Of a stretch of 64,000 nucleotides of DNA, positions 8,903-35,722 are shown one piece after another (the first letter of the stretch is position 1; the number at the start of each line of letters is the position of its first letter). The position numbers and the translations under genes are program-made. Source of the stretch: Candidatus Methylomirabilis sp. Lineage in GTDB: Bacteria > Methylomirabilota > Methylomirabilia > Methylomirabilales > Methylomirabilaceae. The notes below the pieces were generated by a model that saw nothing but the letters and a program-made list of their open reading frames with translations, had not been told where the DNA came from and did no database searches. The stretch covers positions 1-64,000 of the forward strand of contig NZ_JAQUOY010000003.1 of NCBI RefSeq assembly GCF_028716865.1, read 5' to 3'.

Positions 8903-10783
8903 TCAGTCCCGCCTAGTCGACGAGCGGACGATGGAAGGCGCAGGCGAAGTGTCGCCTGTGGAGCCGTCTCCGTATTGACGGATGCAGGCCAGAAAGCGCT
9001 GGCCGAGATCCTGGAGCTTGCGCAGGCCGACCCCCTTGATCTGCAGGAAGGCTTCCTCGGTGGTGGGTCGCTCTCGCGCCATCTCACGCAGGCTGGCGTC
9101 ACTGAAGATGAGATAGGGTGGGATACCTCGCTCTTCGGCCATGGTCCGACGGAGGGCGCGGAGCGTCTCGAACAGATCCTCATCACCCGTTCGGCCAAGG
9201 CCCGGCGGCACGGCCTGACGCGCAGGTCGGGACGGCGTCTCGCGCGCGGGGCGGGCGACCGTGCGGAGAAGCGGCGCTGCATCTTCTCCCCGGAGGGCCC
9301 GATGGCCCCGTGCGGTGACGTCGAGCGTCGGGTACTCTCCCTCGCCGCGCGCCAGATACTCCTGTCCCTCGAGCTGCTCAATCCAGTTCCGCACCGTCGC
9401 CTTCGGGTACTGTCGCAGGACGCCGTAGGTGTCCAGCCGGTTGTGGCGCATCCTTGCGATCCGGGCCGTTTCGGCCCCACGCAGGACGTCCGCCACGTAG
9501 TCGGCGCCGAACCGTTCCCCCATCTCTGTGACGCAGGCGAGGATCTGTCGCGCCAGCGCCGCCGAGCCGTCCTCGACGGCCACCTCGCCGAGGCAGATGT
9601 CGCAAGCTCCGCACGTGTCCGCGCGGTATGCCTGGCCGAAGTAGTTCACGAGAAAGCGGTGTCGACAGGCGCCGCCCTGGCAGTAGTCATACATCTCCCC
9701 GAGCTTCGGCAGGGCGCCAGGCGACGGCAGCCCCTCCGCCATCAAGATGGACCGCCACAGACCGAAGTCGCCGCCGGAGTAGAGCAGCAGGCACTCCGAC
9801 GGCAGGCCGTCGCGCCCGGCCCGGCCCGCCTCCTGCTGGTAGTGCTCGATGGACTTGGGCATTCCGGCGTGGATGACGTAGCGCACGTCGGACCGGTCAA
9901 TGCCCATCCCGAACGCTACCGTGGCCACTATGACATCCGCCCGTTCTGTGATGAAGTTATCCTGAGCGCGCCGTCGTTCGGCATCGGCCAACCCGGCGTG
10001 ATATGCCACTGCCCGGTATCCCCGCCGTCGCAGCGCGTCGGCGAGCTGATCTACCTCCGCCCGGCGGATGCAGTAGATGATCCCGGCTGTTCCCCGGTGC
10101 CGCTCCAACGCTTCTGTGACCTGCCGCAATCGATCCGTGCGCCGGCGCACCCGGTAGATCAGGTTCGGACGGTCGAAGCTCCCGACCAGGATCTCGGGCT
10201 CCCGCAGCGCCAACTCCGTGGCGATGTCCGCCCGAACACGCGGCGTGGCCGTGGCCGTAAAGGCATGGATGGCCACGTCCGGAAAGGCCTCCCGCACTAC
10301 TCTGAGTTGCCGATACTCCGGCCGGAAGTCGTGCCCCCATTGGCTGATGCAGTGCGCTTCGTCGATCGCGAAGAACGCCACCCCGGCTTGCCTCAGCAAC
10401 CTCAAGCAGGGCGGAAGCGTCAGCCGCTCAGGGGCCACGTACAGGAGGTGGTACCGCCCGCGGGCCACATTGGCCTCCACCAACCGTCGCTCGTCGGTCG
10501 TCAGGCTGCTGTTCAGGAAGGCGGCCGGCACCCCCGCGGTGGTGAGCCCGTCCACCTGGTCCTTCATGAGGGCGATGAGGGGCGACACCACCACGGCCAG
10601 CTTCCCCATCGCCGCCGCCGGCGCCTGATAGCAGAGCGACTTCCCACCCCCCGTCGGGAGGATGACGATGGAGTCTCGCCCCGCCAATACCGCCCCTATG
10701 GCCTCTTCCTGCAATGGGAGGAGCGTGTCGTAGCCCCACACGCGCTTTACGGTTCGCCTGATGTTCTCCACGCGTACCCCCAC
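8903..10783 (-). CDS. recQ: RecQ-family ATP-dependent DNA helicase
   Basis: A 626-residue 3'-5' helicase. Motif I is LPTGGGKS (41-48), motif II is IDEAHCISQWGHDFR, motif VI is QEAGRAGRDG, and the zinc-binding block includes CRHRF and CGACDIC. A winged helix and a C-terminal HRDC-like domain (LRALRRTMAEERGIPPY onward) complete the classical RecQ plan. The first possible start is GTG, but AAGGA touches it directly; the GTG at 10771 sits 11 nt after AAGGAG and may be the true start, giving 622 residues. It is divergent from nfuA across a 280-bp gap. Confidence 0.94.
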   Translation of the reverse strand: MGVRVENIRRTVKRVWGYDTLLPLQEEAIGAVLAGRDSIVILPTGGGKSLCYQAPAAAMGKLAVVVSPLIALMKDQVDGLTTAGVPAAFLNSSLTTDERRLVEANVARGRYHLLYVAPERLTLPPCLRLLRQAGVAFFAIDEAHCISQWGHDFRPEYRQLRVVREAFPDVAIHAFTATATPRVRADIATELALREPEILVGSFDRPNLIYRVRRRTDRLRQVTEALERHRGTAGIIYCIRRAEVDQLADALRRRGYRAVAYHAGLADAERRRAQDNFITERADVIVATVAFGMGIDRSDVRYVIHAGMPKSIEHYQQEAGRAGRDGLPSECLLLYSGGDFGLWRSILMAEGLPSPGALPKLGEMYDYCQGGACRHRFLVNYFGQAYRADTCGACDICLGEVAVEDGSAALARQILACVTEMGERFGADYVADVLRGAETARIARMRHNRLDTYGVLRQYPKATVRNWIEQLEGQEYLARGEGEYPTLDVTARGHRALRGEDAAPLLRTVARPARETPSRPARQAVPPGLGRTGDEDLFETLRALRRTMAEERGIPPYLIFSDASLREMARERPTTEEAFLQIKGVGLRKLQDLGQRFLACIRQYGDGSTGDTSPAPSIVRSSTRRD

Positions 10784-11063
10784 TCCTTGCCTTCGACCGG
10801 GAACCCGCGCCCAGGCAACTACCCGAGGCGTTCGGGATACTTATTCAACAAGCGGCAAAACTCCTTATTATAAGTCAGATGGTTATACCAAAATCCTTTT
10901 TAGAATGACAGGCCAATGAACGGGTTGCGCTGTCAATCCATTCTTGAGGGGCGCTTCAGGTTGACGGGAGGGGACCTTTATGTCTACCATAAGAGTGGTC
11001 CAACTGTGCCATGGGCCAGAGACGGAAATCAACATAGGCGTAAAGCCTCAGAGGAAGGAATAT

Positions 11064-11687
11064 ATGCTCACGATCACTGAATCGGCAAAAAAGAAGATCC
11101 TCGAGCTTATGGAGGCCGAGGGGCAGCCAGGCGTGGGGGTGCGTGTCGTGGTGACAGGGGGAGGCCCTGGGAGCTTTCACTATGGGCTTGGGTTCATGGC
11201 CGAGAAGGACAAAGGGGCCGACGATACTGTGATCGACGCTGACGGATTCAAGGTCTATGTCGATGCCGAGAGCGCGCCCAAGCTTCAGGGCGCCACGGTG
11301 GACTTCATCGAGGGGGTCTACGAAAGCGGCTTCAAGATCGACAACCCGAACTCCGGGTGGAAAGACCCTATAGCGGCGGCCGTCCAGCGGGTAATAGATA
11401 TCCGAATCAATCCGGGCGTGGCGGCTCACGGCGGATCCGTGACGCTCCTCGACGTCAAGGATGGTATCGCCTACATCACCTTTGGGGGTGGGTGCCACGG
11501 CTGCGGGATGGCCGACATGACATTGAAGCAGGGGGTCGCTGTAGCGATCCAGGAGGCGGTTCCCGAGATCCGCCAGGTCCTCGACACAACCGACCATGCG
11601 GGTGGCACCAACCCATACTACAAGGGGTCTCAGCGAGGGGCTCCCCCCTGGTCTGACGAGCAGGTAGACCCGTTCACTCAGTACTAA
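11064..11687 (+). CDS. nfuA: Fe-S cluster carrier NfuA
   Basis: A 207-residue protein from the ATG preceded by GAGGAAGGAATAT; the frame extends upstream but lacks a ribosome site there. The N-terminal half is an A-type (IscA/ErpA-like) domain that lacks the conserved cysteines, as in E. coli NfuA. The C-terminal half (about 110-180) is a NifU-C domain with the cluster-binding CHGC motif. It would carry [4Fe-4S] clusters to apo-proteins such as aconitase. The tail of about 25 residues rich in Pro, Gly and Tyr is extra. The 10784-11063 gap contains an AT-rich patch (ttattataag) but no clear gene. Confidence 0.92.
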   Translation: MLTITESAKKKILELMEAEGQPGVGVRVVVTGGGPGSFHYGLGFMAEKDKGADDTVIDADGFKVYVDAESAPKLQGATVDFIEGVYESGFKIDNPNSGWKDPIAAAVQRVIDIRINPGVAAHGGSVTLLDVKDGIAYITFGGGCHGCGMADMTLKQGVAVAIQEAVPEIRQVLDTTDHAGGTNPYYKGSQRGAPPWSDEQVDPFTQY

Positions 11688-11693
11688 CCGAGC

Positions 11694-12404
11694 TTACCTG
11701 ATATCTGGTGAAGCGGCGATCTTGTCGGCCAGCACTGTTTTAATGTCGTTCATCATGACCTGTGGCACCAGGGAGCCTGTGCTGTAGATGTTGCGAACAT
11801 TCCCCGCCTGATCCACCAGGAATACCTTAAGGACGTGACGGTATCGGCCGGTAAAGTGCCCGCGCTCGTCGTAGACCTTCGCCCGATCCTGCCCATAACT
11901 CTTCAGCGTCGTCCTGAGAACTTGCTCCGAGGGGGCCGTCAGCAGATGCCAGAGCGATGACTCCGCCCCAAAGACGCGAGCGTACTTGGCGAGCTGAGCA
12001 GGCGTATCGCGTTCAGCATCCAGGCTGATGGATAGCAACACCGCCTGATCTTGAAGACCCTCCTGCAGGAGTTTCGCCTGGAGTTCTCGGAGCGCCATGC
12101 CGGCCAGTGGACAGCCAAGCCGGTCGGAGCAGGCCGTGTAGATGAAGCTGACGACCGCCACCTTGCCATGCATGAGGGACGCAGTGTTGACGCGGCGGCC
12201 GGCGGTATCGATCAGGACGACTGGCGAGACGCGCGTGATGACCGGAAGGTCATAGGTTCCGGCAACGGGCGGGGTAAACCTGGGCGAGAATACGCCCTGA
12301 ATGTATGTTTCCTCAAATCCCACGCTCTCGTGGGCATTGGCCCATGCGAAATCTGCTAGAAGGGTAACCGCCGCCAACGCTGCACCGATCAGGACAGCAC
12401 CCAT
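11694..12404 (-). CDS. SCO1/SenC-like copper chaperone
   Basis: A 236-residue exported thioredoxin-fold protein with a signal peptide (hydrophobic run to about ADFAWA). The copper/redox motif is TACSDRLGCP: a CX5C spacing instead of the usual SCO CX3C. A downstream His in GRYRHVLKVFLVD fits the third copper ligand. It begins two bases after the stop of the methanethiol-oxidase gene, so the two are translationally coupled. SCO/SenC genes are known next to mtoX, whose product is a copper enzyme, so delivery of copper to that enzyme is the likely job. It converges with nfuA. Confidence 0.85.
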   Translation of the reverse strand: MGAVLIGAALAAVTLLADFAWANAHESVGFEETYIQGVFSPRFTPPVAGTYDLPVITRVSPVVLIDTAGRRVNTASLMHGKVAVVSFIYTACSDRLGCPLAGMALRELQAKLLQEGLQDQAVLLSISLDAERDTPAQLAKYARVFGAESSLWHLLTAPSEQVLRTTLKSYGQDRAKVYDERGHFTGRYRHVLKVFLVDQAGNVRNIYSTGSLVPQVMMNDIKTVLADKIAASPDIR

Positions 12405-21842: not shown

Positions 21843-22190
21843 ATGGTAAAAGCGCCAACAATCTATCCCTGGAAGGTGACGCCCGAAAAAGTCGAGGCGG
21901 CTATCCGAAAAATCGTAGAAGTCGCTCGGCCCGTGAAGCTCATTCTGTTCGGCTCCTATGTACGGGGTGAGACGAACATCAACAGCGACGTGGACATCCT
22001 CGTGATCGTTCCGGACACTGTCGCCAATCCAAGGGAAGAGAGCATCCGACTCCAAAGCGAACTGCGAGACATCCTCATGCCTATGGACATCCTGGTCGTG
22101 CCCGAATCTCAGTGGGAAGCGTTCAAGGAGATCCCGGGGCTGATTTATCGAGAAGCCTGGACCACGGGGAGGGTAATGTATGAATCCTGA
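21843..22190 (+). CDS. mntA: MntA-type minimal nucleotidyltransferase antitoxin
   Basis: A 115-residue polymerase-beta-fold protein with the active-site motif LFGSYVRGETNINSDVDILV (GS-x10-DxD, complete) and a third acidic strand at LMPMDILV. MntA proteins add AMP to the partner HEPN toxin and silence it. It overlaps the HEPN gene by 11 nt, the usual arrangement. Compare the orphan relative at 4.8 kb, where the DxD motif is broken. Confidence 0.9.
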   Translation: MVKAPTIYPWKVTPEKVEAAIRKIVEVARPVKLILFGSYVRGETNINSDVDILVIVPDTVANPREESIRLQSELRDILMPMDILVVPESQWEAFKEIPGLIYREAWTTGRVMYES

Positions 22191-22605
22191 GGGTCTCAAG
22201 CGAGTTCCCGGTTCACCGGAGGAATGGCTGGAGTATGCCGAAAGCGATTTGAGGCTCGCCCAGATGGCCAGTCAAGATTCTGGTATTCGCCGGGAGCAAG
22301 TATGCTTTCATACCCAGCAGGCAGCAGAGAAATCGATCAAGGCTGTGCTCTTACTCCACAGGATTAATTTTCCTCTGACACACAACATCGAACAACTCCT
22401 CTCGCTGGCTGAGAGCAGTGGTGTTGTATTGGCAGATGAAGTGCGAAATGCAGGACTGTTGACTCCGTACGCCGTGGAGACCAGGTATCCTGGGCCCTGG
22501 ATCGAGATCGGCGACTCCGAAGTGCAAGAGGCCCTGCGGGCAGCGGAACGGACAGTTGCGTGGGCGCGGATCACCATTGCGCAGTTCGGGAAGAGGGGAA
22601 CATGA
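22180..22605 (+). CDS. hepT: HepT-type HEPN toxin (RNase)
   Basis: A 141-residue all-alpha HEPN-domain protein. WLEYAESDLRLAQMA starts the domain, FHTQQAAEKSIKAVLLLH is the conserved second helix, and RINFPLTH supplies the Rx4-6H catalytic motif (Arg and His separated by six). HEPN toxins cleave RNA. It is silenced by MntA; in some pairs modification targets a Tyr near the motif, and Tyr residues are seen here at ...LTPYAVETRYPG. The stop overlaps the next, broken, gene by 4 nt. Confidence 0.88.
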   Translation: MNPEGLKRVPGSPEEWLEYAESDLRLAQMASQDSGIRREQVCFHTQQAAEKSIKAVLLLHRINFPLTHNIEQLLSLAESSGVVLADEVRNAGLLTPYAVETRYPGPWIEIGDSEVQEALRAAERTVAWARITIAQFGKRGT

Positions 22606-23009: not shown

Positions 23010-23038
23010 TTGTCACCGTTGACTAAAGCGAGTATACT
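23010..23038 (+). promoter_or_regulatory. Promoter of the helicase-methyltransferase-RT cassette, near-leaderless
   Basis: TTGTCA (23010-23015), 17-nt spacer, TATACT (23033-23038). The -10 box ends 9 nt before the ATG at 23048, so transcription would begin within a few bases of the start codon. The short TCCGTTTCA between them has no Shine-Dalgarno. Confidence 0.55.
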
Positions 23039-23047
23039 TCCGTTTCA

Positions 23048-26000
23048 ATGCCTAGAATATTCGACAATATCGAGCAATCGCTCCTGCCGGCGCTGCAACA
23101 GACCATTGAGGTAGCCGATCGCGCCGACTTCTGCGTGGGGTACTTTAACCTTCGCGGATGGAAGCAGCTCGACTCGTACATTGAGCAATGGTCCGGGGGA
23201 GAAGGCCATTGCTGCCGCCTTCTGGTGGGGATGCACCGTCCGCCACAAGATACCTTACGCGAAGCGATGAGCATCGTGAAGCGCGACGGGGCGATCGATA
23301 ACCAGACGGCCTTGCGTCTCAAGAAAACCCTTGCTCAAGAATTTCGCGAACAGTTAGCCCTGGGTATTCCAACCAACGAGGATGAAGCCGGTCTGCGACG
23401 CCTGGCCGCTCAGATCAAAGCGAAGAAAGTCGTTGTGAAGCTCTTCCTCAAGCACCCACTCCATGCCAAGCTCTATTTGTTGTTCCGGCCTGATCCCATC
23501 AATCCGACTGTCGGATACCTCGGCAGCAGCAACCTGACCTTCGCGGGGCTCTCTCAGCAAGGCGAATTGAACGTGGACGTGCTCGACCATGATGCCTGCA
23601 ACAAGTTGGCCGCGTGGTTCGAGGACCGTTGGAACGATCACTGGTGCTTGGACATCTCGGATGAGCTGGCACGCATCATCGAAGAAAGCTGGGCGCGCGA
23701 GACACCAATCCCTCCCTATCAGATCTACGTCAAGATGGCCTATCACTTGTCGCAGGAGGCCCGCGCTGGGCTCTCCGAGTTTCGCATCCCCCGAGATTTT
23801 GGTCAGAAGTTGTTCGAGTTTCAGACAGCGGCGGTAAAGATCGCCGCGCATCACCTGAACAAGCGTGGGGGTGTACTGATCGGGGACGTGGTGGGTCTTG
23901 GCAAAACACTGATGGCAACTGCCCTGGCGCGTATCTTCGAGGACGATCAATACCTGGAGACGCTGATCATCTGCCCGAAAAACCTGGTTCCAATGTGGGA
24001 GGACTACCGTGCCCAGTATCGCTTGCGGGCGAAAGTGCTCTCAATCAGCCGGGCCACGCGCGAGTTGCCTCACCTTCGGCGATACCGTCTCTTGCTGATT
24101 GATGAGAGCCATAACCTACGCAACCGCGAAGGCAAACGTTACCGCGCGATCCAGGAGTACATCCAGGAGAACGAAAGCAAATGCATCCTGCTGTCCGCCA
24201 CGCCATACAATAAGACCTATCTTGACCTCTCCAGCCAACTACGCCTGTTCGTGCAGGAAGACAAAGACTTGGGAATTCGCCCCGAGCGGAAGCTTCGCGA
24301 GGTCGGCGAAACCGAGTTCATCCGCAAGCACCAGTGCCCGGTACGCTCCCTGGCGGCCTTCGAGAAGAGCGAGCATGCCGATGACTGGCGGGAGCTGATG
24401 CGCCTGTATATGGTGCGCCGCACGCGCAGCTTCATTCAGGACAATTACGCGCACACTGACCCCGCCAACGGGCGCAAGTACCTAACCTTTGAAGACGGCA
24501 GCCGGTCGTACTTTCCCAAGCGCCTGCCGAAGACCGTCACGTTCAGGATTGACGAAACGAACCTCGCCGATCAGTACGCCCGGCTCTATGCCGACAACGT
24601 GGTGGAGGCCATCAATGCGCTCAACCTTCCCCGGTATGGTCTGGGGAACTATGTGTCTGCCTCGCCGCATCGGCCGCCGACGCAGGCCGAAGCGAAGTTA
24701 CTGCAAGACCTCTCCCGCGCGGGCAAGCGCCTCATGGGGTTCTGCCGGACGAACTTGTTCAAGCGACTGGAAAGCAGCGGTCAGGCCTTCTTGCAATCCA
24801 TCGAGCGACATATCCTGCGCAATTTCGTGTACCTGCATGCCATCGAAACCGGTCAGCCCGTGCCCATCGGTACGCAGGACTCGGAGATGCTCGATACACG
24901 ATTCTCCGATGAAGACAGCGAAGGTGGCCTGTTTGACGACGATGAGAACGGCGAGGGGCTTCTGTCGCCAGAGGCCGCTTCGCTACGGACCGAGGCGGGG
25001 TTCAAGAGCCGTGCAAAAGAGATTTACGCCGAGTACGCCGCGCAATACAGGCGGCGTTTCAAATGGCTGTCGCCAGGTCTTTTCGTCAAGACACTGGAAA
25101 ACGATTTACGCGGTGATGCGGAGGCCCTGCTCAAGCTCTTACAGGCGTGCGGTGAGTGGAACGCGGGCAAAGACGCTAAGCTCGACGCCCTGCTCACTCT
25201 TCTGACCAGGAAGCACCCGAACGAGAAGGTCATTGTCTTTACCCAGTTCGCCGACACCGTCCGCTATCTGGCTGGCCAATTAGAGGCGCGTGGCATCGCG
25301 AAACTCTCCGGAGTGACCGGCGACTCGCCGGACCCGACCGCGCTGGCATGGTGTTTCAGCCCGGATAGTAATAATAAGCTGACCCATATCAAGCCGGGTG
25401 AGGAACTTCGAATCCTGGTGGCGACAGATGTCCTCAGTGAGGGGCAAAACCTGCAAGATTGCGCCGTCGTCGTCAACTACGACCTGCCGTGGGCGATCAT
25501 CCGGCTTGTGCAGCGCGCGGGGCGCGTAGACCGCATCGGGCAGAAGGCCGAGAACATTCTGTGTTACTCGTTTCTCCCGGCCGACGGCGTGGAGCGCATT
25601 ATCCGGCTTCGCGCGCGCGTCCGCCGGCGCTTGCGGGAAAACGCCGAGGTTGTCGGTACGGATGAGGCGTTTTTTGAAGATGACCGCAACGACCAGACGG
25701 TGCTGGACCTCTACAACGAGAAATCCGGTATTCTCGATGGCGACGCCGAAACAGAGGTGGATCTGGCGTCCTACGCCTACCAAATCTGGAAGAACGCCGT
25801 CACTGCCGACTCAAGCCTGCAAAAAATCATTCCGGAACTGCCGCCTGTTGTTTACTCCACGCGGGCGCACCAGCCGAATGAGACACAACCCGAAGGCGTG
25901 CTCGTCTATCTACGGACCGCCGAAGGGAATGACGCGCTGGCCTGGATTGACAAGCAGGGGGGCGGTGTCACCGAATCGCAGTTTGCGATCCTCCAAGCGG

Positions 26001-26422
26001 CGGCTTGCGCGCCAGACACAACGGCGCTGCCGCGTCAGAATAACCACCACGAACTGGTCCAGACAGGCGTCGAGCTGATCGTGAAAGAGGAAAAGTCCGT
26101 CGGCGGCCAGTTGGGCCGGCCGTCGGGCGCGCGCTTCCGCACGTACGATCGGCTCAAGCATTACGCCGAGCAGGTCAAGGGCACGCTGTTTGAGTCGCAG
26201 GAACTCCATAAGGCCATCGATGACATCTACCGCTACCCCCTGCGTCAATCCGCCGTGGATACACTCAACCGCCAACTGCGCAGCGGCATTTCCGATGAAG
26301 CCCTCGCCCAATTGGTCATCGCCTTGCGCGACGAAGGACGCCTGTGCCAGATTCACGAGGAAGAGCAGGCGCAGGATCCGCGCATCATCTGTTCGATGGG
26401 TCTGACGGTTCCCCCAAACTGA
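23048..26422 (+). CDS. PLD-nuclease / SNF2-type helicase fusion
   Basis: A 1124-residue two-part protein. Residues 1-220 form a phospholipase-D-like domain with HAK (139-141) and GSSNLTFAGL (159-168), the HxK...N pattern of PLD-type nucleases; the Asp of a full HKD motif is not seen. From about 250 there is an SF2/SNF2 motor: Walker A DVVGLGKT (280-287), motif II DESH (352-355), motif III LLSATPYN, and motif VI VQRAGRVDRIGQ. Such fusions act as translocases or nucleases in restriction-like defence. A methyltransferase gene starts 9 nt after the stop, so the pair should form one restriction-modification-like unit. Start fits a leaderless mRNA. Confidence 0.88.
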   Translation: MPRIFDNIEQSLLPALQQTIEVADRADFCVGYFNLRGWKQLDSYIEQWSGGEGHCCRLLVGMHRPPQDTLREAMSIVKRDGAIDNQTALRLKKTLAQEFREQLALGIPTNEDEAGLRRLAAQIKAKKVVVKLFLKHPLHAKLYLLFRPDPINPTVGYLGSSNLTFAGLSQQGELNVDVLDHDACNKLAAWFEDRWNDHWCLDISDELARIIEESWARETPIPPYQIYVKMAYHLSQEARAGLSEFRIPRDFGQKLFEFQTAAVKIAAHHLNKRGGVLIGDVVGLGKTLMATALARIFEDDQYLETLIICPKNLVPMWEDYRAQYRLRAKVLSISRATRELPHLRRYRLLLIDESHNLRNREGKRYRAIQEYIQENESKCILLSATPYNKTYLDLSSQLRLFVQEDKDLGIRPERKLREVGETEFIRKHQCPVRSLAAFEKSEHADDWRELMRLYMVRRTRSFIQDNYAHTDPANGRKYLTFEDGSRSYFPKRLPKTVTFRIDETNLADQYARLYADNVVEAINALNLPRYGLGNYVSASPHRPPTQAEAKLLQDLSRAGKRLMGFCRTNLFKRLESSGQAFLQSIERHILRNFVYLHAIETGQPVPIGTQDSEMLDTRFSDEDSEGGLFDDDENGEGLLSPEAASLRTEAGFKSRAKEIYAEYAAQYRRRFKWLSPGLFVKTLENDLRGDAEALLKLLQACGEWNAGKDAKLDALLTLLTRKHPNEKVIVFTQFADTVRYLAGQLEARGIAKLSGVTGDSPDPTALAWCFSPDSNNKLTHIKPGEELRILVATDVLSEGQNLQDCAVVVNYDLPWAIIRLVQRAGRVDRIGQKAENILCYSFLPADGVERIIRLRARVRRRLRENAEVVGTDEAFFEDDRNDQTVLDLYNEKSGILDGDAETEVDLASYAYQIWKNAVTADSSLQKIIPELPPVVYSTRAHQPNETQPEGVLVYLRTAEGNDALAWIDKQGGGVTESQFAILQAAACAPDTTALPRQNNHHELVQTGVELIVKEEKSVGGQLGRPSGARFRTYDRLKHYAEQVKGTLFESQELHKAIDDIYRYPLRQSAVDTLNRQLRSGISDEALAQLVIALRDEGRLCQIHEEEQAQDPRIICSMGLTVPPN

Positions 26423-26431
26423 GCGCTGAGC

Positions 26432-29400
26432 ATGCCGCTCGACGTCACGCGTACTCGCCAGTATCTGAGCCGCTTCGATTTCAAGACGCTGTTCCTCGAA
26501 GAGTTGGGCTGGGACTCGCACACCGCCTCGGTTGATGCGGTCAGTGACGGCCAGACCTTTGCGCTGACCGCCATCGCTCAGAAGCGCGGCATGGTGGCCT
26601 TCATCTGCTCACCGAACGGGCCGTCCGGCATCCCCGAATATCCCACGCGGCGCAAGATCGAACGGCAGGTCGCAAAATCCGTCCAGGAACATCTCATCAT
26701 CTACACCGACCCTGCTCAGACCACGCAAATCTGGCAGTGGGTCAAACGCGAGGTCGGCAAGCCGACCGCCTGCCGGGAGCATACCTACCACCGCGCGCAG
26801 CCAGGCGATGCGCTCATTCAGAAGCTGCAAGTGATCGCGTTCAGCCTGGACGAAGAGGAGCGTCTGAGTCTGGTGGACGTCACCAGCCGGACGCGAACCG
26901 CGTTCGATGTCGAGCGCGTCACTAAACGCTTCTATGACGTCTTCCAGAAAGAGCACGCGGCCTTCCTGAAGTTCCTGAAGGGCATTCCCGACGAGGAACT
27001 CCAACGCTGGTACGTCTCCGTCATGCTCAACCGCTTGATGTTCGTCTACTTCATCCAGAAGAAGCACTTCCTGGATGGCAATCCGGACTATCTGCGTAGC
27101 AAGCTGGCGGAAAGCCTGGCACGGGGGAAAGACCGCTTTTATCGGGAGTTCTTGTGCCCGCTCTTCTTCGAGGGCTTCGCGAAGAAAGACTCTGAACGAT
27201 CGACAGCGACGAACCGGCTCCTAGGCAAGGTGCCGTACCTCAACGGCGGCCTGTTCCTGCGCCACCAGATCGAGGAGCAGCACGGCAAGGACATCCAGAT
27301 CGCCGATGCCGCCTTCGAGAAATTGTTCAGCTTCTTCGAGCAATACCACTGGCACCTGGACGAACGGCCTCTTCGTCGGGACGACGAAATCAATCCCGAT
27401 GTGCTGGGCTACATCTTTGAGAAGTACATCAACCAGAAGCAGATGGGTGCGTACTACACGAAGGAGGACATCACCGGCTACATCAGCCAGAACACCGTCG
27501 TCCCGTTTCTGTTCGATACCGCCAGACAGAAGTGCAAGATCGCCTTCGAAGGAGAGTCGTCCATCTGGCGGCTGTTGCAGGCTGATCCCGATCGCTACTT
27601 CTATGGGGCGGTGAAAAAGGGTGCCGAGTTACCATTACCTCCGGACATCGCGGCGGGGTTGAGCGATGTATTAAAGCGCACCGGGTGGAACAGGCCCGCG
27701 TCTGCCGGTTACGCCCTGCCCACGGAAATCTGGCGTGAGGTTGTGGCAAGGCGCACGCGGTACGAGGACGTCAAGGGCAAACTGGCCAACGGGGAGATCC
27801 GCGACATCAACGACCTCATCACCTACAACCTGGACATCCGACAGTTTGCGCAGGACGTGATCGAAAACTGTGAAGGCCCGGAACTACTCAGGGCCTTCTA
27901 TCACGCGATCGAGAAGGTCACGGTGCTGGATCCCACCTGCGGGTCAGGGGCCTTCCTCTTTGCGGCGCTCAATATCCTCGAACCCCTCTATGAGGCATGC
28001 TTGGATCGGATGGAGGTCTTTTTGGATGAATTGGAGCGATCCGGCGTGAAGCACCGGCCCGAGAAGTTCAGCGACTTCCGCAAACTCCTCGATCGCGTCG
28101 CGTCTCACCCGAACCCCCGCTACTTCATCCTGAAGTCCATCATTGTCAACAATCTCTATGGTGTGGACATCATGGAAGAGGCGGTGGAGATCTGCAAGCT
28201 CCGCCTGTTCCTCAAGCTCGTTGCGCAGATCGAGCGGGTCGAGCACATCGAGCCGCTGCCCGACATCGACTTCAACATCCGTGCAGGCAACACGCTCGTG
28301 GGCTACGCCAATCTGGAAGAGATCAAGAAGTCCATGGAGGGGGATTGGGTCAAGCTGCAGTCGTTGCCGGCCATTGAAGAGAACGCCGAGATCGCCGATC
28401 GGGCCTTCCAGCAGTTTCACGAGATGCAGACCGAACACGGTATGGAGGCCAAAGACTTCGCCGACGCCAAGTTGGAACTCTGGAGACGGCTGAAGGTGCT
28501 GGAGGATGAACTCAACCGCTACCTTGCCCAGGAATACGGCGTCCCTCCTCCCTCGGAGGGAGAGGGTCGGGGTGAGGGGAAAAGGAAGTCCCCTGCATAC
28601 GAGAAGTGGCTTGCTTCTCATAAGCCGTTCCACTGGTTCATCGAGTTCTACCGAATCATGAAAAGCGGCGGATTCGACGTGGTCATCGGCAACCCGCCAT
28701 ATGTGGAGTACCGATTGGTTAAGGACATATACAAGTTATCATCGGATCAATATAAATCAGAAAACGCAGGTAACTTGTATGCGTTCTGTATGGAAAGATC
28801 ATGTGTATTACTTGGCAAAACCGGTTGGTTTGGGATGATTGTGCCCGCAGCCGTTCTTGGTCTGGATGAGACGCTCTGTCTTCGTGACGTGCTTCTTAGA
28901 AAGTTCCCTATGAATTTTTGCAGCACATACGCTATCAGGCCTTCTAAATTGTTCGACGGAGTTGACCAGAGACTCTGTATTTATCTCGGCATGGACGGAA
29001 AAGAATGTGCTCCTATCGTCTGGACAACCAAGTATCGTCATTGGAATTCAGAAGAACGCCCTGCGCTCTTTGCAAGGCTTGAATATGTAAGAACGCTCAC
29101 TCATCACCGACTCAAGAGGATACCGCAGGTAGGAAGTCATGAGGCGGTCAGCATATTGGCCAAGCTAGAAGCCAGGAGCGAAAAAGTTGTCCTGAGCTAT
29201 TATTCCAATGGTCCTTCTGGGTACGATATGCACTATCACCGTAGCCCCAGATACTGGATCAGGGCAATGGACTTTGAGCAGTATTTCAAGAGTCCGACTA
29301 GAACCCGTTCTATTCATCACTTCCGTGACCTGCATTTTAAGGATAAGCGCGAAGCAAGGGTTGTCGGTGCTGCCTTGAATAGCTCGCTGTTCTTCTACTG

Positions 29401-29725
29401 GTTTGTGTCGGTGGGCAACGGACGGAACATCACGGGCACTGATGTCGAGCAATTCCCATTGGGTAATTTGAGCGAGGACATCGTCAACGAACTTCCCAGG
29501 CTATTCGACAAGCTCATGAAGGACTATAAGGTGCATTCCTTCATCAGAGTACGGCAAGACTGTGAATTTCAGGAGTTTCGCCCAAGCATGTCCAAACCAA
29601 TCATCGATGAGATCGACCGCGCGCTGGCGAAGCACTACGGCTTCACGGATGAGGAGCTGGACTTCATCATCAACTACGACATCAAGTACCGCATGGGTGG
29701 GAGCGACAATGACGGTGATGAATGA
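26432..29725 (+). CDS. Eco57I-type adenine DNA methyltransferase (type IIG-like)
   Basis: A 1097-residue class-I SAM-dependent N6-adenine methyltransferase. An N-terminal domain (about 1-130, with a degenerate endonuclease-like look) and a helical linker precede motif I LDPTCGSGAFLF (499-510) and the catalytic NPPY (754-757). The target-recognition region follows to about residue 1040. The bases coding for about 765-1040 are visibly AT-richer than the flanks, as expected of swapped recognition domains. A mini-repeat encodes PPSEGEGRGEGK near 704-717. Its partner is the upstream helicase; the reverse transcriptase follows 25 nt later. Confidence 0.88.
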   Translation: MPLDVTRTRQYLSRFDFKTLFLEELGWDSHTASVDAVSDGQTFALTAIAQKRGMVAFICSPNGPSGIPEYPTRRKIERQVAKSVQEHLIIYTDPAQTTQIWQWVKREVGKPTACREHTYHRAQPGDALIQKLQVIAFSLDEEERLSLVDVTSRTRTAFDVERVTKRFYDVFQKEHAAFLKFLKGIPDEELQRWYVSVMLNRLMFVYFIQKKHFLDGNPDYLRSKLAESLARGKDRFYREFLCPLFFEGFAKKDSERSTATNRLLGKVPYLNGGLFLRHQIEEQHGKDIQIADAAFEKLFSFFEQYHWHLDERPLRRDDEINPDVLGYIFEKYINQKQMGAYYTKEDITGYISQNTVVPFLFDTARQKCKIAFEGESSIWRLLQADPDRYFYGAVKKGAELPLPPDIAAGLSDVLKRTGWNRPASAGYALPTEIWREVVARRTRYEDVKGKLANGEIRDINDLITYNLDIRQFAQDVIENCEGPELLRAFYHAIEKVTVLDPTCGSGAFLFAALNILEPLYEACLDRMEVFLDELERSGVKHRPEKFSDFRKLLDRVASHPNPRYFILKSIIVNNLYGVDIMEEAVEICKLRLFLKLVAQIERVEHIEPLPDIDFNIRAGNTLVGYANLEEIKKSMEGDWVKLQSLPAIEENAEIADRAFQQFHEMQTEHGMEAKDFADAKLELWRRLKVLEDELNRYLAQEYGVPPPSEGEGRGEGKRKSPAYEKWLASHKPFHWFIEFYRIMKSGGFDVVIGNPPYVEYRLVKDIYKLSSDQYKSENAGNLYAFCMERSCVLLGKTGWFGMIVPAAVLGLDETLCLRDVLLRKFPMNFCSTYAIRPSKLFDGVDQRLCIYLGMDGKECAPIVWTTKYRHWNSEERPALFARLEYVRTLTHHRLKRIPQVGSHEAVSILAKLEARSEKVVLSYYSNGPSGYDMHYHRSPRYWIRAMDFEQYFKSPTRTRSIHHFRDLHFKDKREARVVGAALNSSLFFYWFVSVGNGRNITGTDVEQFPLGNLSEDIVNELPRLFDKLMKDYKVHSFIRVRQDCEFQEFRPSMSKPIIDEIDRALAKHYGFTDEELDFIINYDIKYRMGGSDNDGDE
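28544..28583 (+). repeat. Palindromic mini-repeat inserted in frame in the methyltransferase
   Basis: CCTCCCTCGGAGGGAGAGGG followed by TCGGGGTGAGGGG. The first part is an inverted repeat (CCTCCCTC/GAGGGAGAGG-like). This string is familiar from many bacterial genomes as a dispersed repeat. Here it adds about 12 Gly/Glu/Arg/Ser codons between motif I and NPPY, without breaking the frame. Confidence 0.6.
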
Positions 29726-29750
29726 GTTCACAGACCCGGAATGATGACCT

Positions 29751-31802
29751 ATGCCCATGCTTGATGACCTACATGCGGACGACAACCTTCACCGCGCATG
29801 GGGTTGGCTTCGCCGCAATTCTGACGCCTCGTACAAGCACTACTTCCGCGACCTCTACGCAATCTACGCGATCGCGGATATCCGATTATTGAGGCGACTA
29901 CAGGACCGTCTGCGGCGCGGCATCTACGAGCCGACCCGGGCCTGTAAGCTTTTCTTCCCCAAGCCATCCGGTATCCTCCGTCCGTATTCGCTCCTGACCA
30001 TCGAAGACCAAATCGTCTATCAGGCGGCCATCAATCTCGTCGCTGAGCGGCTTTTCCAAAAGGTCAAGCACCGCTACAACAAGGAAGTGTTCGGCCACCT
30101 CTATGCTGGCAAGACGAGCTCGTGGTTCTATCGAAAATGGAGTGACGGCTACAAGGCGTTTAATGATGCTGCCCGGGTGGCCTTCGTCGACGGCTTTCGA
30201 TTCGCGGCCAGTTTCGACTTTACGGCTTGTTACGACAGCTTGGATCATGGCGTCCTGCGGCACATGCTTCACAAAATTGGCTGCGACAAGGACTTCGCCG
30301 AGGTGTTAACGAAATGGCTCAGCGTCTGGACCGCTACGGACCACGGGATCTACCATAATCACGGCATCCCGCAGGGACCGCTCAGCTCCGGATTGCTATC
30401 TGAGGTGGTTCTTCGCCACTTTGACGACCGCCGCAAGTTCGAGGGCAAGGTCCGCTACTTCCGCTACGTGGATGACATTCGCTTGTTCGCAAAGTCCGAG
30501 GGCGACCTCCGGCGGTTGCTGGTACGGCTAGATATCCTGAGCAAGGACATCGGGCTCTTTCCACAGTCCAACAAGATCAGCATTCACGAGGTCAAGGACA
30601 TTGAGGCCGAGGTCAAGTCCATCAGCAACCCGACGGAAAGCTCGATTCGCAGCAGAATCGTCAACCAGGATCGCCTGCGCAAGCGGCTAGTCAGCCTGAC
30701 GCCGCACTTTCGCGTGAAGGATTCGACTCGGTTCAAGTATCTGCTGGCTCATGCGCAGCCCAATGCGAAGCTCACCGCCCGTCTTTGGCGAATATTCGAG
30801 AATCAACCCGAGTTTTACGTGCAGTTCGCTCGCTATCTGGAGCGCTACCGCCGACTGCCACGCCGCACGGCTCAACGTCTCCTAAAGGAAATCGAACGGC
30901 AGGAGCTGTATCCGGCCATACGTGCCGCTCTGCTCGCTGCTGCCGATGGTCGCCTCGCGGACCAACATGCGCGATCCTTGGCAACACTTGTCAAAAGTAC
31001 AATTTGGAAGCCTAGAGACATGCCGGCTGATCTGTTCGCGGCTGCGGGACGGATGCTCCTCACCGGTGGGCGGCTGACGCTCGCCCAATTGCGGTACGCA
31101 TGCCAGCGAGAGAAACCTTGGTGGGGACGCGCGCAGATCGTGCTTGCTTTGAACCCGACGAATGTCACTCATGAGGCGCTGGCGGGAATTCTCAATGACG
31201 CCTTGCGTGACAAACATAGCGACGTGGCGCTCGCCGCGGCTTTTGGCGCAGCGATGAACGGCGTCGTCCTGAAGTCGCCCCGGAAAACGATCGAGCCAAC
31301 GGCAGCAGAGGTGCTGAAGGAACTGGGCGTAATTGCTCGTACGCCGCCGCCTCCGTGTGGAATCGATTCGAGCCTGCGGAGAATGCTCGGAACGGTTCCA
31401 GCCATCAAGTGGAAGACCGTCTTCGGCGGGAACTATCGACATGTGGAGAAGCATATCGTTCATGCGCGAGCACTCGCCGACACGAACGTCAGCGCGTGGG
31501 TGAACGCCATGGACGTATTCAACGACTGGTTGCTGGTCGCACTCTACGCGCACGACGGATCGCTCGGCAGCTATACGTCGGGACAAATCGGATCAATCTT
31601 ACATAGCAAACGACTGAAGAAAACGTACCCCGCGCTTCACGCGCTGGTTGTAGGTATACACAAAAAACGGCTGGAAAGTCTCTTATCGCACGCCAAGACC
31701 AAGAGCAGCGGCAGGCCCACAAGGCCCATCAAGTGGGGGTATCTCAAGACCGGGAAAGCGCTACTTCGAAAGGCTCTTGAGGAGCAGGCGAAAAAGTGGT
31801 GA
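29751..31802 (+). CDS. Reverse transcriptase of the unknown-group/Abi type with helical C-terminus
   Basis: A 683-residue RNA-directed DNA polymerase. Fingers: FPKPSGILRPYSLLTIEDQI (69-88). Palm: first catalytic Asp in ASFDFTACYDSLDH (153-166), GIPQGPLSSG (205-214), and the catalytic YVDD (239-242). There is no maturase X/HNH region or retron-style motif, and no msr/msd or intron ends are visible. From about 310 the chain is alpha-helical with HEAT-like repeats to about 540, then a separate end, the plan of AbiA/AbiK- and UG-class defence RTs. It lies 25 nt after the methyltransferase stop, suggesting a single transcript. I cannot place it in a numbered DRT class by eye. Confidence 0.85.
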   Translation: MPMLDDLHADDNLHRAWGWLRRNSDASYKHYFRDLYAIYAIADIRLLRRLQDRLRRGIYEPTRACKLFFPKPSGILRPYSLLTIEDQIVYQAAINLVAERLFQKVKHRYNKEVFGHLYAGKTSSWFYRKWSDGYKAFNDAARVAFVDGFRFAASFDFTACYDSLDHGVLRHMLHKIGCDKDFAEVLTKWLSVWTATDHGIYHNHGIPQGPLSSGLLSEVVLRHFDDRRKFEGKVRYFRYVDDIRLFAKSEGDLRRLLVRLDILSKDIGLFPQSNKISIHEVKDIEAEVKSISNPTESSIRSRIVNQDRLRKRLVSLTPHFRVKDSTRFKYLLAHAQPNAKLTARLWRIFENQPEFYVQFARYLERYRRLPRRTAQRLLKEIERQELYPAIRAALLAAADGRLADQHARSLATLVKSTIWKPRDMPADLFAAAGRMLLTGGRLTLAQLRYACQREKPWWGRAQIVLALNPTNVTHEALAGILNDALRDKHSDVALAAAFGAAMNGVVLKSPRKTIEPTAAEVLKELGVIARTPPPPCGIDSSLRRMLGTVPAIKWKTVFGGNYRHVEKHIVHARALADTNVSAWVNAMDVFNDWLLVALYAHDGSLGSYTSGQIGSILHSKRLKKTYPALHALVVGIHKKRLESLLSHAKTKSSGRPTRPIKWGYLKTGKALLRKALEEQAKKW

Positions 31803-32080: not shown

Positions 32081-32416
32081 ATGGAGATAACCTTTAGCTC
32101 TAGGAAATTGCAAAAAGTCTGCAACTCAGAAAAAGAGATGCGGGCCAGGTTCGGTAAGCCATTGGCCGAAAGGCTCCAGCAGCGGTTGGCCGAACTCAAG
32201 GCAGCGGACACGCTTGAAGATATCCGGCGATTGCCCTCAGCTCGCTGCCACGAATTATCACAGAACCGAAAAGGGCAACTTGCTGTCGATGTGGTGCATC
32301 CCAAACGACTCATCTTCGAGCCGGACCACAATCCGGTGCCTCACAAAACGGATGGTGGTCTTGATTGGTCTCATGTCACGAAAATTCGAGTGATCGAAAT
32401 CATTGACTACCATTGA
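32081..32416 (+). CDS. higB: HigB/RelE-family toxin
   Basis: A 111-residue RelE-fold protein: EITFSSRKLQKVCNSEKEM at the start, LEDIRRLPSARCHELSQNRK in the middle and HVTKIRVIEIIDYH at the end, the usual HigB pattern of a ribosome-dependent mRNA endonuclease. It is slightly longer than typical RelE. It overlaps the antitoxin gene by 14 nt (toxin first, as in higBA). Transcription is expected to be repressed from the GGTAAAT operator. Confidence 0.82.
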   Translation: MEITFSSRKLQKVCNSEKEMRARFGKPLAERLQQRLAELKAADTLEDIRRLPSARCHELSQNRKGQLAVDVVHPKRLIFEPDHNPVPHKTDGGLDWSHVTKIRVIEIIDYH

Positions 32417-33515
32417 AGAACTCATGACCAGAAAATCTACAGCAAAACGATACGTTTTTGAGCCAGAGTACGCTGTACCTCCGGGCCGAACGTTACAGGA
32501 GACCATTGATGCTCTGGGGATGGGGCAACGGGATCTGGCCACACGGGCTGGACTCTCGGCCAAACATATCAATCAGATTATCCGAGGAGTCGCCACCATT
32601 TCTCATGAAACGGCGATTCGGCTGGAACAGGTTACCGGTGTGTCGGCGCGGATGTGGAACAACCTTGAGGTCAACTACCGAGAACAATTAGCCAAGTTGG
32701 AAGAAAAAAAGCGTCTTGAACATGACTTGGCTTGGTTAAAGAAGATTCCCACTGGCGAATTGATCAAGCGCGGGAAGATTGAAAAACAGACAGACCGGGT
32801 GCTTATGCTGAAAGCGGTATTAGGCTTTTTCGGGGTTGCCGATGTGGAGGCGTGGAACAAAATTTGGTTGAGCCCTACCGTTGCCTACCGCAAGTCGGCG
32901 GTATTTCAGGGAAAACCCGAGGCCATGGCAACATGGTTGCGATTAGGGGAACTGGCGGCAAGAGCGGTCCCGTGTGCCCCGTTCGACAAGTCAAGATTCC
33001 GCTCCGTTCTTCACGAGATACGAGCCATCACGCTAGAAAAACCGGAGGTTTCTGTACCCAAAATGAAGGGGCTCTGCGCAGACGCTGGAGTTGCCATGGT
33101 GTTGGTCCCGGAGATTAGGAACGCCCCCGTAAGCGGGGCGACACGATGGCTGACTCCAGAAAAGGCCATGCTCCAACTGAGCCTTCGTTATAAGACCAAT
33201 GACCAATTCTGGTTTACCTTCTTTCATGAGGCAGGGCACATACTGTGTGGTGGGAAAAAGGAGGTCTTCATTGACCTTAATCATGCGACAGGAAAAGGGG
33301 AAATGGAGGCCGATAGCTTTGCCGCGGATCATCTGATCCCACCTCGTAGTGCAAGCGAATTGAACGGGTTGAAGAGTACGTGGGCTATTGAAGCCTTCGC
33401 CGAGTCCATTGGTATTGCACCGGGCATCGTGGTAGGACGGCTCCAACATGAAGGGATGATTGGTCACGACCAGTTCAATGGGCTGAAGATGCGGTATCAG
33501 TGGGCGCAGCAATAG
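32403..33515 (+). CDS. HigA-type XRE antitoxin fused to an ImmA/IrrE peptidase domain
   Basis: A 370-residue protein. An XRE helix-turn-helix lies at about 32-85 (MGQRDLATRAGLSAKHINQI). The C-terminal half is an ImmA/IrrE-like metallopeptidase with the zinc motif HEAGH (275-279) and a downstream ADSFAADHLIP segment with the third ligand. Such two-domain antitoxins bind their operator and may be cleaved, or cleave a repressor, in response to DNA damage. An ATG at 32424 is an alternative start that would avoid most of the overlap with higB. Confidence 0.88.
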   Translation: MTTIEELMTRKSTAKRYVFEPEYAVPPGRTLQETIDALGMGQRDLATRAGLSAKHINQIIRGVATISHETAIRLEQVTGVSARMWNNLEVNYREQLAKLEEKKRLEHDLAWLKKIPTGELIKRGKIEKQTDRVLMLKAVLGFFGVADVEAWNKIWLSPTVAYRKSAVFQGKPEAMATWLRLGELAARAVPCAPFDKSRFRSVLHEIRAITLEKPEVSVPKMKGLCADAGVAMVLVPEIRNAPVSGATRWLTPEKAMLQLSLRYKTNDQFWFTFFHEAGHILCGGKKEVFIDLNHATGKGEMEADSFAADHLIPPRSASELNGLKSTWAIEAFAESIGIAPGIVVGRLQHEGMIGHDQFNGLKMRYQWAQQ

Positions 33516-33545: not shown

Positions 33546-34181
33546 TTGACCTTGCTTGCCACTTCTTGGATTCATCCGGACGATTCTGCCTACCCTCCCG
33601 TTCTTCCCAGCCTTCTTGGCAACGATGCACCATCTCGCGTCACCGTGCTGGGTGATCTCAACATTCTGAATCAGAAATCGCTGGCGCTATTCTGCTCGGT
33701 GAAATGCCCCGGCAATCTCATCTTGCAAACCTACGACCTTGCGCAGCGCTTGCGGCAATCCGGCGTTACCGTGATCGGCGGGTTTCATTCACCGATGGAG
33801 CGCGAGTGCCTGACGATCCTACTGCGCGGCACGCAGCCGGTCATTGCGTGTCCGGCCCGAAGCCTTTCCGGCATGCGAATCCCGGCCGTGTACAAGCAGC
33901 CGCTCGAACAAGGCAGGATGCTGCTCCTGTCGCCCTTTGCCGATACAGTACGCCGTGCGACTGTAGAAACGGCCATGCTCCGGAACCGCGTTGTTGCCGC
34001 AGTCGCCGGCGCGATCTTCGTGGCCCATGCGGAACTCCAGAGCAAAACCGAGCAGTTCTGCCGCGAGGTGCTTGCATGGCGGAAGCCGCTCTATACATTG
34101 GCCGACAACGCGAACGGCCACCTGCTCACGATGGGCGCTCAACCGTTACGTCTTAATGATCTGTCTCTGTTGCTCAGATGA
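33546..34181 (+). CDS. Short stand-alone DprA/SLOG-fold protein
   Basis: A 211-residue protein starting at TTG, 3 nt after CAGGGGG. It follows the DprA/Smf Rossmann fold: YPPVLPSLLGNDAPSRVTVLGDL, then VTVIGGFHSPMERECLTILL and a late ALDNANGHLL-like segment (TLADNANGHLLTMG). It lacks the SAM and DML1 domains of full DprA (about 360 residues). The usual GSR nucleotide motif is not conserved. Small SLOG proteins in defence islands can bind nucleotides or DNA, and this one follows a HigBA unit by 30 nt. A competence role is unlikely from context. Confidence 0.7.
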   Translation: MTLLATSWIHPDDSAYPPVLPSLLGNDAPSRVTVLGDLNILNQKSLALFCSVKCPGNLILQTYDLAQRLRQSGVTVIGGFHSPMERECLTILLRGTQPVIACPARSLSGMRIPAVYKQPLEQGRMLLLSPFADTVRRATVETAMLRNRVVAAVAGAIFVAHAELQSKTEQFCREVLAWRKPLYTLADNANGHLLTMGAQPLRLNDLSLLLR

Positions 34182-34432: not shown

Positions 34433-34735
34433 ATGAGGACGGTAAGCGCGACAGAAGCGAAGAGTAAGTTGTCCGATTTATTGTCAAGCACCGAATATAA
34501 CCAGGAACGAATCATCATTGAGCGCAGCGGCCGGCCGGCCGCTGTCCTCATTAGTGTGGGGGACCTTGCGTTCCTTGAGGAGGTGGAGGATCGCCTTGCA
34601 TCCTATGAAATTGAAAAAGCGCTCAAGAAGACCAAGCGCTCCCGCCCCATTGAGCAGGTGATTGTTGATTATGAGAAGAAGCATAAGATCCAGCTCATAG
34701 ATTTGAAGGGTGCGGGTGATGGGCCGGACAAGTAA
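34433..34735 (+). CDS. Phd/YefM-family antitoxin
   Basis: A 100-residue antitoxin. The N-terminal Phd fold is clear (VSATEAKSKLSDLLSSTEYN then IIIERSGRPAAVLISVGDL), binding DNA as a dimer; the charged C-terminus (about 60-100, KALKKTKRSRPIEQVIVDYE) would wrap around the toxin. It overlaps the toxin start by 17 nt and sits behind its own promoter. GGGGAGG lies 13 nt before the ATG, slightly long but usable. Confidence 0.88.
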   Translation: MRTVSATEAKSKLSDLLSSTEYNQERIIIERSGRPAAVLISVGDLAFLEEVEDRLASYEIEKALKKTKRSRPIEQVIVDYEKKHKIQLIDLKGAGDGPDK

Positions 34736-35048
34736 TTACTACGATATGAATCTCCATGAAGAGGCCGAAAAGCACGTTATACGGTACCCGCCAAAGCAGT
34801 TCAAGCAAGTTATCACAAAGGTTTTTAGCCTGAGAAAAAATCCACGGCCTCAAGATGCCAAGGAACTCAAAGGCTATCCAGGTGCCTTTCGGGTGGATCA
34901 AGGTGAATACCGAGTCATTTATCTCGTAGACGATGATCAGCGCCTGATCACGGTGATGAAAATCGGCAAGCGGAACGACGAAGAAGTGTACCGCCATCTT
35001 GAGAGCCTCAAGCAAGCCTTCCTCGCAGGTACCTTGAAGCGGCGATAG
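34719..35048 (+). CDS. RelE/ParE-superfamily toxin
   Basis: A 109-residue toxin from the ATG within the antitoxin gene, with GAAGGG 9 nt ahead (a GTG at 34710 is the alternative). YPPKQFKQVITKVFSLRKNP, ELKGYPGAFRVDQGEYRVIY and VMKIGKRNDEEVYRH match the RelE fold, with the basic and aromatic residues used for mRNA cleavage at the ribosome. It pairs with the Phd-type antitoxin, the common yefM/relE mix. Confidence 0.87.
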   Translation: MGRTSNYYDMNLHEEAEKHVIRYPPKQFKQVITKVFSLRKNPRPQDAKELKGYPGAFRVDQGEYRVIYLVDDDQRLITVMKIGKRNDEEVYRHLESLKQAFLAGTLKRR

Positions 35049-35646: not shown

Positions 35647-35722
35647 TGGTGGAGGGTAGGGGATTCGAACCCCTGGCCTCGGCGTTGCGAACGCCGCGCT
35701 CTCCCAACTGAGCTAACCCCCC
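35647..35722 (-). tRNA. tRNA-Ala (anticodon CGC)
   Basis: The complementary strand folds as a full cloverleaf: acceptor GGGGGGT/ACCCTCC, D stem GCTC/GAGC, anticodon stem CGGCG/CGCCG with loop TTCGCAA, T arm AGGGG-TTCGAAT-CCCCT. Anticodon CGC reads GCG (Ala). The CCA end is encoded. Its 3' end is duplicated at 35549-35568. Confidence 0.95.

Follow-up and report, generated by a model that had tools for sequence, protein, structure and literature searches.

A UG19 reverse transcriptase with a probable HEPN-like end looks like an exchangeable add-on to DNA-targeting operons

Among the described systems closest to the one considered here, the Lactococcus AbiA protein is a reverse transcriptase (RT) that makes protein-primed, template-free DNA and that bears the motif RNSNPVSH, the more general form Rx4-6H being carried by most active HEPN RNases (PMC11077055). 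The RT-nitrilase DRT1 also makes protein-primed, template-free DNA, and the resulting adducts hold its effector domain in check (PMC13275509). In a 2013 survey of HEPN domains, the C-terminal domain of AbiA was described as fused to an RT and located “in operon with R-M system” (PMC3710099). Here, a stretch of 64,000 nucleotides (nt) from Candidatus Methylomirabilis sp. (assembly GCF_028716865.1, contig NZ_JAQUOY010000003.1, positions 1 to 64,000), referred to below as the window, was analyzed for a three-gene row in which a PLD-SNF2 helicase gene and a DNA methyltransferase gene are followed by an RT gene. On balance, we lean towards the reading that this third gene encodes an autonomous AbiA-like RT of the UG19 group with a HEPN-like end, which rides exchangeably on DNA-targeting operons as an optional second line. 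This reading is built on the family of the RT, its predicted architecture, the swapping of its partners and its recurrence without the helicase-methyltransferase pair.

The RT gene (29751..31802, + strand; 683 amino acids (aa)) contains an RVT_1 domain and matches the PADLOC model RT_UG19 over residues 4-683 with 556 bits (E 2.7e-167), the runner-up model, UG21, reaching 161 bits; the RT_UG19 model has 562 positions as against the 683 aa of the window protein. The motifs of the RT palm are intact, namely motif A (FDF, residues 155-157; 30213..30221, + strand), GIPQGP (residues 205-210) and the catalytic YVDD (residues 239-242; 30465..30476, + strand), which is invariant in 10 aligned UG19 RTs, while D156, D241 and D242 are all invariant in the UG19 alignment. 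An original prediction, made from the sequence of the window, had described three co-directional genes separated by gaps of 9 and 25 nt, these same intact motifs, and a long helical C-terminus of the RT, all of which agree with the open reading frame coordinates, the residues listed above and the structure model described below. It had also placed the RT in the UG/Abi class, which stands, and had called it unassigned, which does not, since RT_UG19 matches at the E-value given. NCBIfam offers no name for this gene, and a literature search turned up no function for UG19. The group is sparsely distributed: 95 genomes were searched in the phylum of the window, and UG19 occurs in two of these, both of one genus and one of them the genome of the window, and in larger draws from other groups its frequency is ~2% of species or fewer. 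Searches of plasmid and phage records with the RT retrieved nothing closer than group II RTs and other distantly related RT domains.

An AlphaFold2 model of the RT, based on eight sequences, consists of palm and fingers, an alpha-helical solenoid (residues ~306-524; 30666..31322, + strand), seen as a run of helices with a predicted local distance difference test score (pLDDT) of mostly 74-93, and a C-terminal helical domain (residues 530-683; 31338..31799, + strand), the placement of the domains being unsure at a predicted template modelling score (pTM) of 0.43. When modelled by itself, the C-terminal domain attained a pLDDT of 85 and a pTM of 0.81. Five columns are invariant among 13 diverse C-terminal domains, and two of them, R640 and H647, delimit an R-x6-H motif (RLESLLSH, residues 640-647; 31668..31691, + strand) which sits at the end of a helix in the model. 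This motif is present in 15/15 complete long-form UG19 RTs, and in a distant UG19 branch it mostly takes the form RNxxPxSH (RNYLPMSH, RNLLPGSH, RNSIPGSH). A Foldseek comparison of the C-terminal domain with the Protein Data Bank (PDB) placed AbiA (template modelling (TM) score 0.48) and the HEPN domain of sacsin (0.46-0.50) at the top, with E above 1 and therefore not significant. Viral structures yielded no match, and the best TM-score of 0.37 among the matches listed serves merely as background for the AbiA value. The matches to 5aj1 returned by a PDB sequence profile were set aside as chance-level. For the RT model as a whole, AbiA, AbiK and Abi-P2 were among the Foldseek matches, which are driven by the RT domain. 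Considering motif and model together, it is reasonably probable that the C-terminal domain is HEPN-like. In another locus (L027, oriented 8947-12373), an unrelated stretch of ~1.3 kb severs the end of the UG19 RT; the Rx6H motif was not found in this broken RT, and the part corresponding to it lies beyond the insert.

The sample of UG19 neighbourhoods comprises 18 loci (those other than the window being designated by L numbers), of which 17 are independent; L036 and L037 represent one prophage family. In 8 of these 17 (L002, L003, L010, L034, L031, L028, L004 and the window) the RT gene is either enclosed in a DNA-targeting operon or follows one directly, with gaps ranging from -4 to 144 nt. 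The closest relative found, the RT of L002 (80% identical), directly follows a SIR2 and Argonaute pair (L002:2-3055; PADLOC Aga_SIR2 418 bits, pAgo_II 699 bits). In L003, L010 and L034 the RT follows complete or partial genes of a type I restriction-modification (R-M) system, in L031 it is located between hsdS and hsdM, in L028 it ends a BrxC-PglZ-BrxD-BrxHI row of the bacteriophage exclusion (BREX) type, and in L004 it stands behind an Eco57I-type methyltransferase gene and an ATPase-like gene. On the RT tree, at least six changes are required between being in a DNA-targeting operon and not, and four sister pairs (L003/L029, L010/L032, L034/L035 and L031/L027) each join an RT of a type I operon to one located elsewhere. 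Between the window and L002, nucleotide similarity starts at the RT start codon, stops ~25 nt before the RT stop codon and resumes in a DprA-like gene, and since this homology spans the RT gene from its start codon to near its end, the RT would represent a swapped module. From these neighbourhoods, the UG19 RT looks like an exchangeable add-on to DNA-targeting operons, not part of one fixed three-gene system. In L030 (396-8166), a short UG19-type RT gene is followed by several genes, including one for a UvrD-like helicase as read by eye.

According to the reading favoured here, the UG19 RT would be an autonomous Abi-type polymerase directed against phages, in which the helical solenoid replaces the thumb, and which, judging from the biochemistry of AbiA and DRT1, would synthesize protein-primed, template-free DNA on itself. 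By the same analogy, the HEPN-like domain would pair subunits, act as an RNase, or both. The carrier in the window would be the PLD-SNF2 helicase and type IIG-like methyltransferase system, which recurs without the RT. Going one step further, the RT would come into play as a second line once restriction has failed or has been blocked by a phage, in the manner of PrrC beside EcoprrI. The RT and the restriction enzyme need not be in contact, and a common transcript may be the entire coupling between them. The most plausible reading of the link to restriction is that the RT is optionally co-expressed with a first-line system; a similar co-expression has been proposed for HEPN genes located beside R-M systems (PMC3710099).

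Several observations weigh against this reading. The 18 loci constitute a small and uneven sample assembled from different searches, and some of the neighbours (HsdR, HsdS and HsdM in L031, HsdR in L034) were read by eye. No Rx6H motif was found in the two RTs of the short branch (L028 and L030), and neither Pfam nor the PDB sequence profile nor Foldseek provided a significant HEPN match for the C-terminal domain. An effector role of the HEPN-like domain is not assured, because the HEPN domain of AbiA showed no RNase activity and was required for polymerization (PMC11077055). Lastly, in 9 of the 17 independent loci the RT stands alone or has other neighbours, with no DNA-targeting partner; as about half of the RTs lack a restriction partner, coupling to restriction is not required.

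These partnerless loci are also what lends some weight to the first alternative, according to which the RT defends independently and simply happens to occur with restriction genes in defence islands and at the 3’ ends of operons, without any functional coupling. The same alternative gains from the existence of a partnerless form carried as prophage cargo between endolysin and integrase genes (L036:9569-13406 and L037:9487-13324), and from the island of the window itself, which also holds MNT-HEPN, HigBA and Phd-ParE pairs. It is countered by junctions of -4, 4, 6 and 10 nt and by the position of the RT between hsdS and hsdM in L031, all in separate clades; because of these tight junctions and this placement, recurrent selection for co-expression looks like the cause, and absence of coupling is judged a tenable but unlikely explanation. 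In the opposite direction, the proposal may be widened to a universal second-line module, a single protein with an RT and a HEPN-like domain, which would be fitted to operons of the type I R-M, type IIG, BREX and Argonaute kinds alike and detect when these fail, with self-made DNA adducts as an off-switch and with a DprA-like partner that in some loci may read the DNA made by the RT; in this broad form it is regarded as doubtful.

A different mode of action would be that of the class 2 defence-associated RTs (DRTs), of which DRT2, DRT9 and DRT10 copy a flanking noncoding RNA. The RT domain does belong to the UG superfamily, and 278 nt follow the RT gene in the window. However, the spaces on the two sides of the RT amount to -4 and 2 nt in L004 and to 10 and 8 nt in L034, which belong to two clades, and little free sequence is left in L003 (4 nt upstream) or in L036/L037 (7 nt downstream). 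As there is almost no free sequence on either side of the RT in L004 and L034, a flanking RNA template is very unlikely. Rfam likewise returned no match in the window, and no conserved space was found beside the UG19 RTs.

The two genes preceding the RT encode, on the same strand, a PLD (HKD-type) nuclease fused to an SNF2 helicase, the predicted restriction subunit (23048..26422, +; 1124 aa), and, 9 nt further, an Eco57I/type IIG-like adenine DNA methyltransferase (26432..29725, +; 1097 aa), from which the RT gene is separated by 25 nt. In the helicase protein the Pfam domains PLDc_2, RE_NgoFVII, SNF2-rel_dom and Helicase_C all exceed their cut-offs, PADLOC reports C3a139 “HKD+Snf2”, and the motifs HAKLYLL, GLGKT, DESH and QRAGRVDRIGQ can be read in the sequence. 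The second protein is an N6 methyltransferase of the Eco57I type with intact DPTCGSGAF and NPPY motifs, matching Pfam Eco57I (1.3e-26) and, end to end, PADLOC REase_MTase_IIG (residues 1-1090, 1070 bits). By its domains and motifs the pair is therefore type IIG-like R-M, as had been proposed in general terms at the outset, and its restriction and methylation activities are predicted. A DISARM system was considered and rejected, the helicase scoring 141 bits against a DrmD cut-off of 610, with DrmA, DrmB and DrmC not among the annotated open reading frames around the locus. The statement that the three genes lie behind one promoter did not hold up, resting on a 10/12 sigma-70 match at 23010-23038, a type of site found at chance frequency (4 found vs 3.9 expected in shuffles), and terminator predictions at the locus were no better than chance.

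The pair also recurs by itself. Plasmids of Pelobacter, Synechocystis, Picosynechococcus, Anabaena and Rhodococcus carry the helicase and methyltransferase genes in the same arrangement; the pair is altered or broken in Paenarthrobacter and Microbacterium, and in Dolichospermum the helicase gene is followed by an unnamed gene. In two-gene systems such as those of Synechocystis pSYSX and Pelobacter pPRO1, both genes show 45-57% identity in the same order, and the next genes on the plasmids inspected encode DUF2513, an ATPase with DUF4276, or hypothetical proteins, never an RT. The pair also lies at the end of a contig (helicase 81% and methyltransferase 74% identical) in a genome from the same order, 70% complete, in which a UG19 RT was not found. 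No RT was located behind the helicase in any of the relatives inspected, most of which have the methyltransferase adjoining (the plasmid copies, the same-order genome and the viral contig L048), and the nearest relatives of the RT all lack the pair, an outcome that the original prediction had itself named as refuting. For these reasons the proposed role of the RT as third component of this R-M pair, for which the tight co-directional arrangement in the window speaks, is largely refuted and must be rated more improbable still than a noncoding RNA template: the pair recurs without the RT, the RT recurs without the pair, and a second helicase-methyltransferase-RT triplet, whose recurrence in unrelated genomes had been suggested as a check, was not found in the RT-relative or helicase-relative loci inspected. 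What survives of the original prediction of an RT-based backup is its weaker form, an exchangeable add-on, which is a fair hypothesis because DNA-targeting defence operons repeatedly have a UG19 RT gene at their end or in their interior. That the RT is a domesticated or stray group II intron RT is next to impossible, the weak similarities to TIGR04416 (84 bits, far under the cut-off of 300) and, over the palm, to group II RT structures being outweighed by a UG19 match spanning the entire RT, by a helical C-terminus where maturase and endonuclease domains would be, and by the absence of intron RNA in the Rfam scan; a retron was rejected as well (St85 model, 32 bits against a cut-off of 235, and no Rfam match), both exclusions having been anticipated.

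A short DprA/SLOG-like gene (33546..34181, + strand; Pfam DNA_processg_A) is a recurrent companion of both modules. In this PsyrA-like form it adjoins the RT in L002 (5229-5717) and L005 (3918-4532) and the methyltransferase in L048 (9784-10425), and no relative of it was found in the plasmid collection searched. On the viral contig L048, the DprA-like gene (57%) overlaps by 4 nt with the preceding methyltransferase (59%), which itself stands behind the helicase (76%), with no RT in between; in the window, the DprA-like gene is separated from the pair by the RT and the HigBA genes. Because the L048 pair runs straight into the DprA-like gene, the RT and HigBA look inserted into a helicase-methyltransferase-DprA operon, which is the simplest history suggested by gene order, a loss in L048 being possible. 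The HigB-like toxin gene (32081-32416, + strand) and the HigA/M78 antitoxin gene (32403-33515, + strand) between the RT and the DprA-like gene are probably a separate unit; they are absent at the corresponding place in L002 and L048, and the HigA protein with its M78 peptidase domain matches PADLOC PD-Lambda-2_B with 81 bits. A type VII toxin-antitoxin-like pair of an MNT nucleotidyltransferase and a HEPN protein (21843-22605) is situated 442 nt upstream of the helicase gene, a Phd/YefM-ParE pair occupies 34433-35048, and beyond it a tRNA-Ala gene (35647-35722) may mark the edge of a defence island.

With respect to known systems, the UG19 RT has the same order of parts as AbiA (RT, helical domain and, at the end, HEPN in AbiA and a probable HEPN-like domain in UG19) and an Rx6H motif near the C-terminus, the AbiA sequence RNSNPVSH corresponding to RNxxPxSH in the distant UG19 branch; however, the UG19 C-terminal domain has no significant sequence or fold match to AbiA, which is not among the sequence matches of the window RT profile. 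An RT-HEPN protein in an operon with an R-M system was already noted for AbiA in 2013, and the UG19 case is a variant thereof. As far as the literature searched shows, what is new in UG19 is the HEPN-like end, the link to BREX and Argonaute operons and the swapping of partners. DRT1, from which the template-free model is borrowed, is likewise a single-gene fusion of an RT and an effector domain, its nitrilase differing from the HEPN-like end. One RT family is thus common to operons of the restriction, BREX and Argonaute kinds, and since its partners have been exchanged repeatedly, it can be tested whether a UG19 RT protects alone or needs its carrier system to be present or disabled. Like UG19, PrrC, which accompanies the type Ic EcoprrI R-M system, places a putative HEPN protein gene within or trailing a restriction operon, with a proposed second-line role; PrrC has an ABC ATPase and inactivates tRNA-Lys, whereas UG19 has an RT as partner domain and varies in its carriers, so that, if the reading favoured here is true, the idea of a restriction system guarded by an enzyme that causes suicide or shutdown would extend from PrrC to reverse transcriptases.

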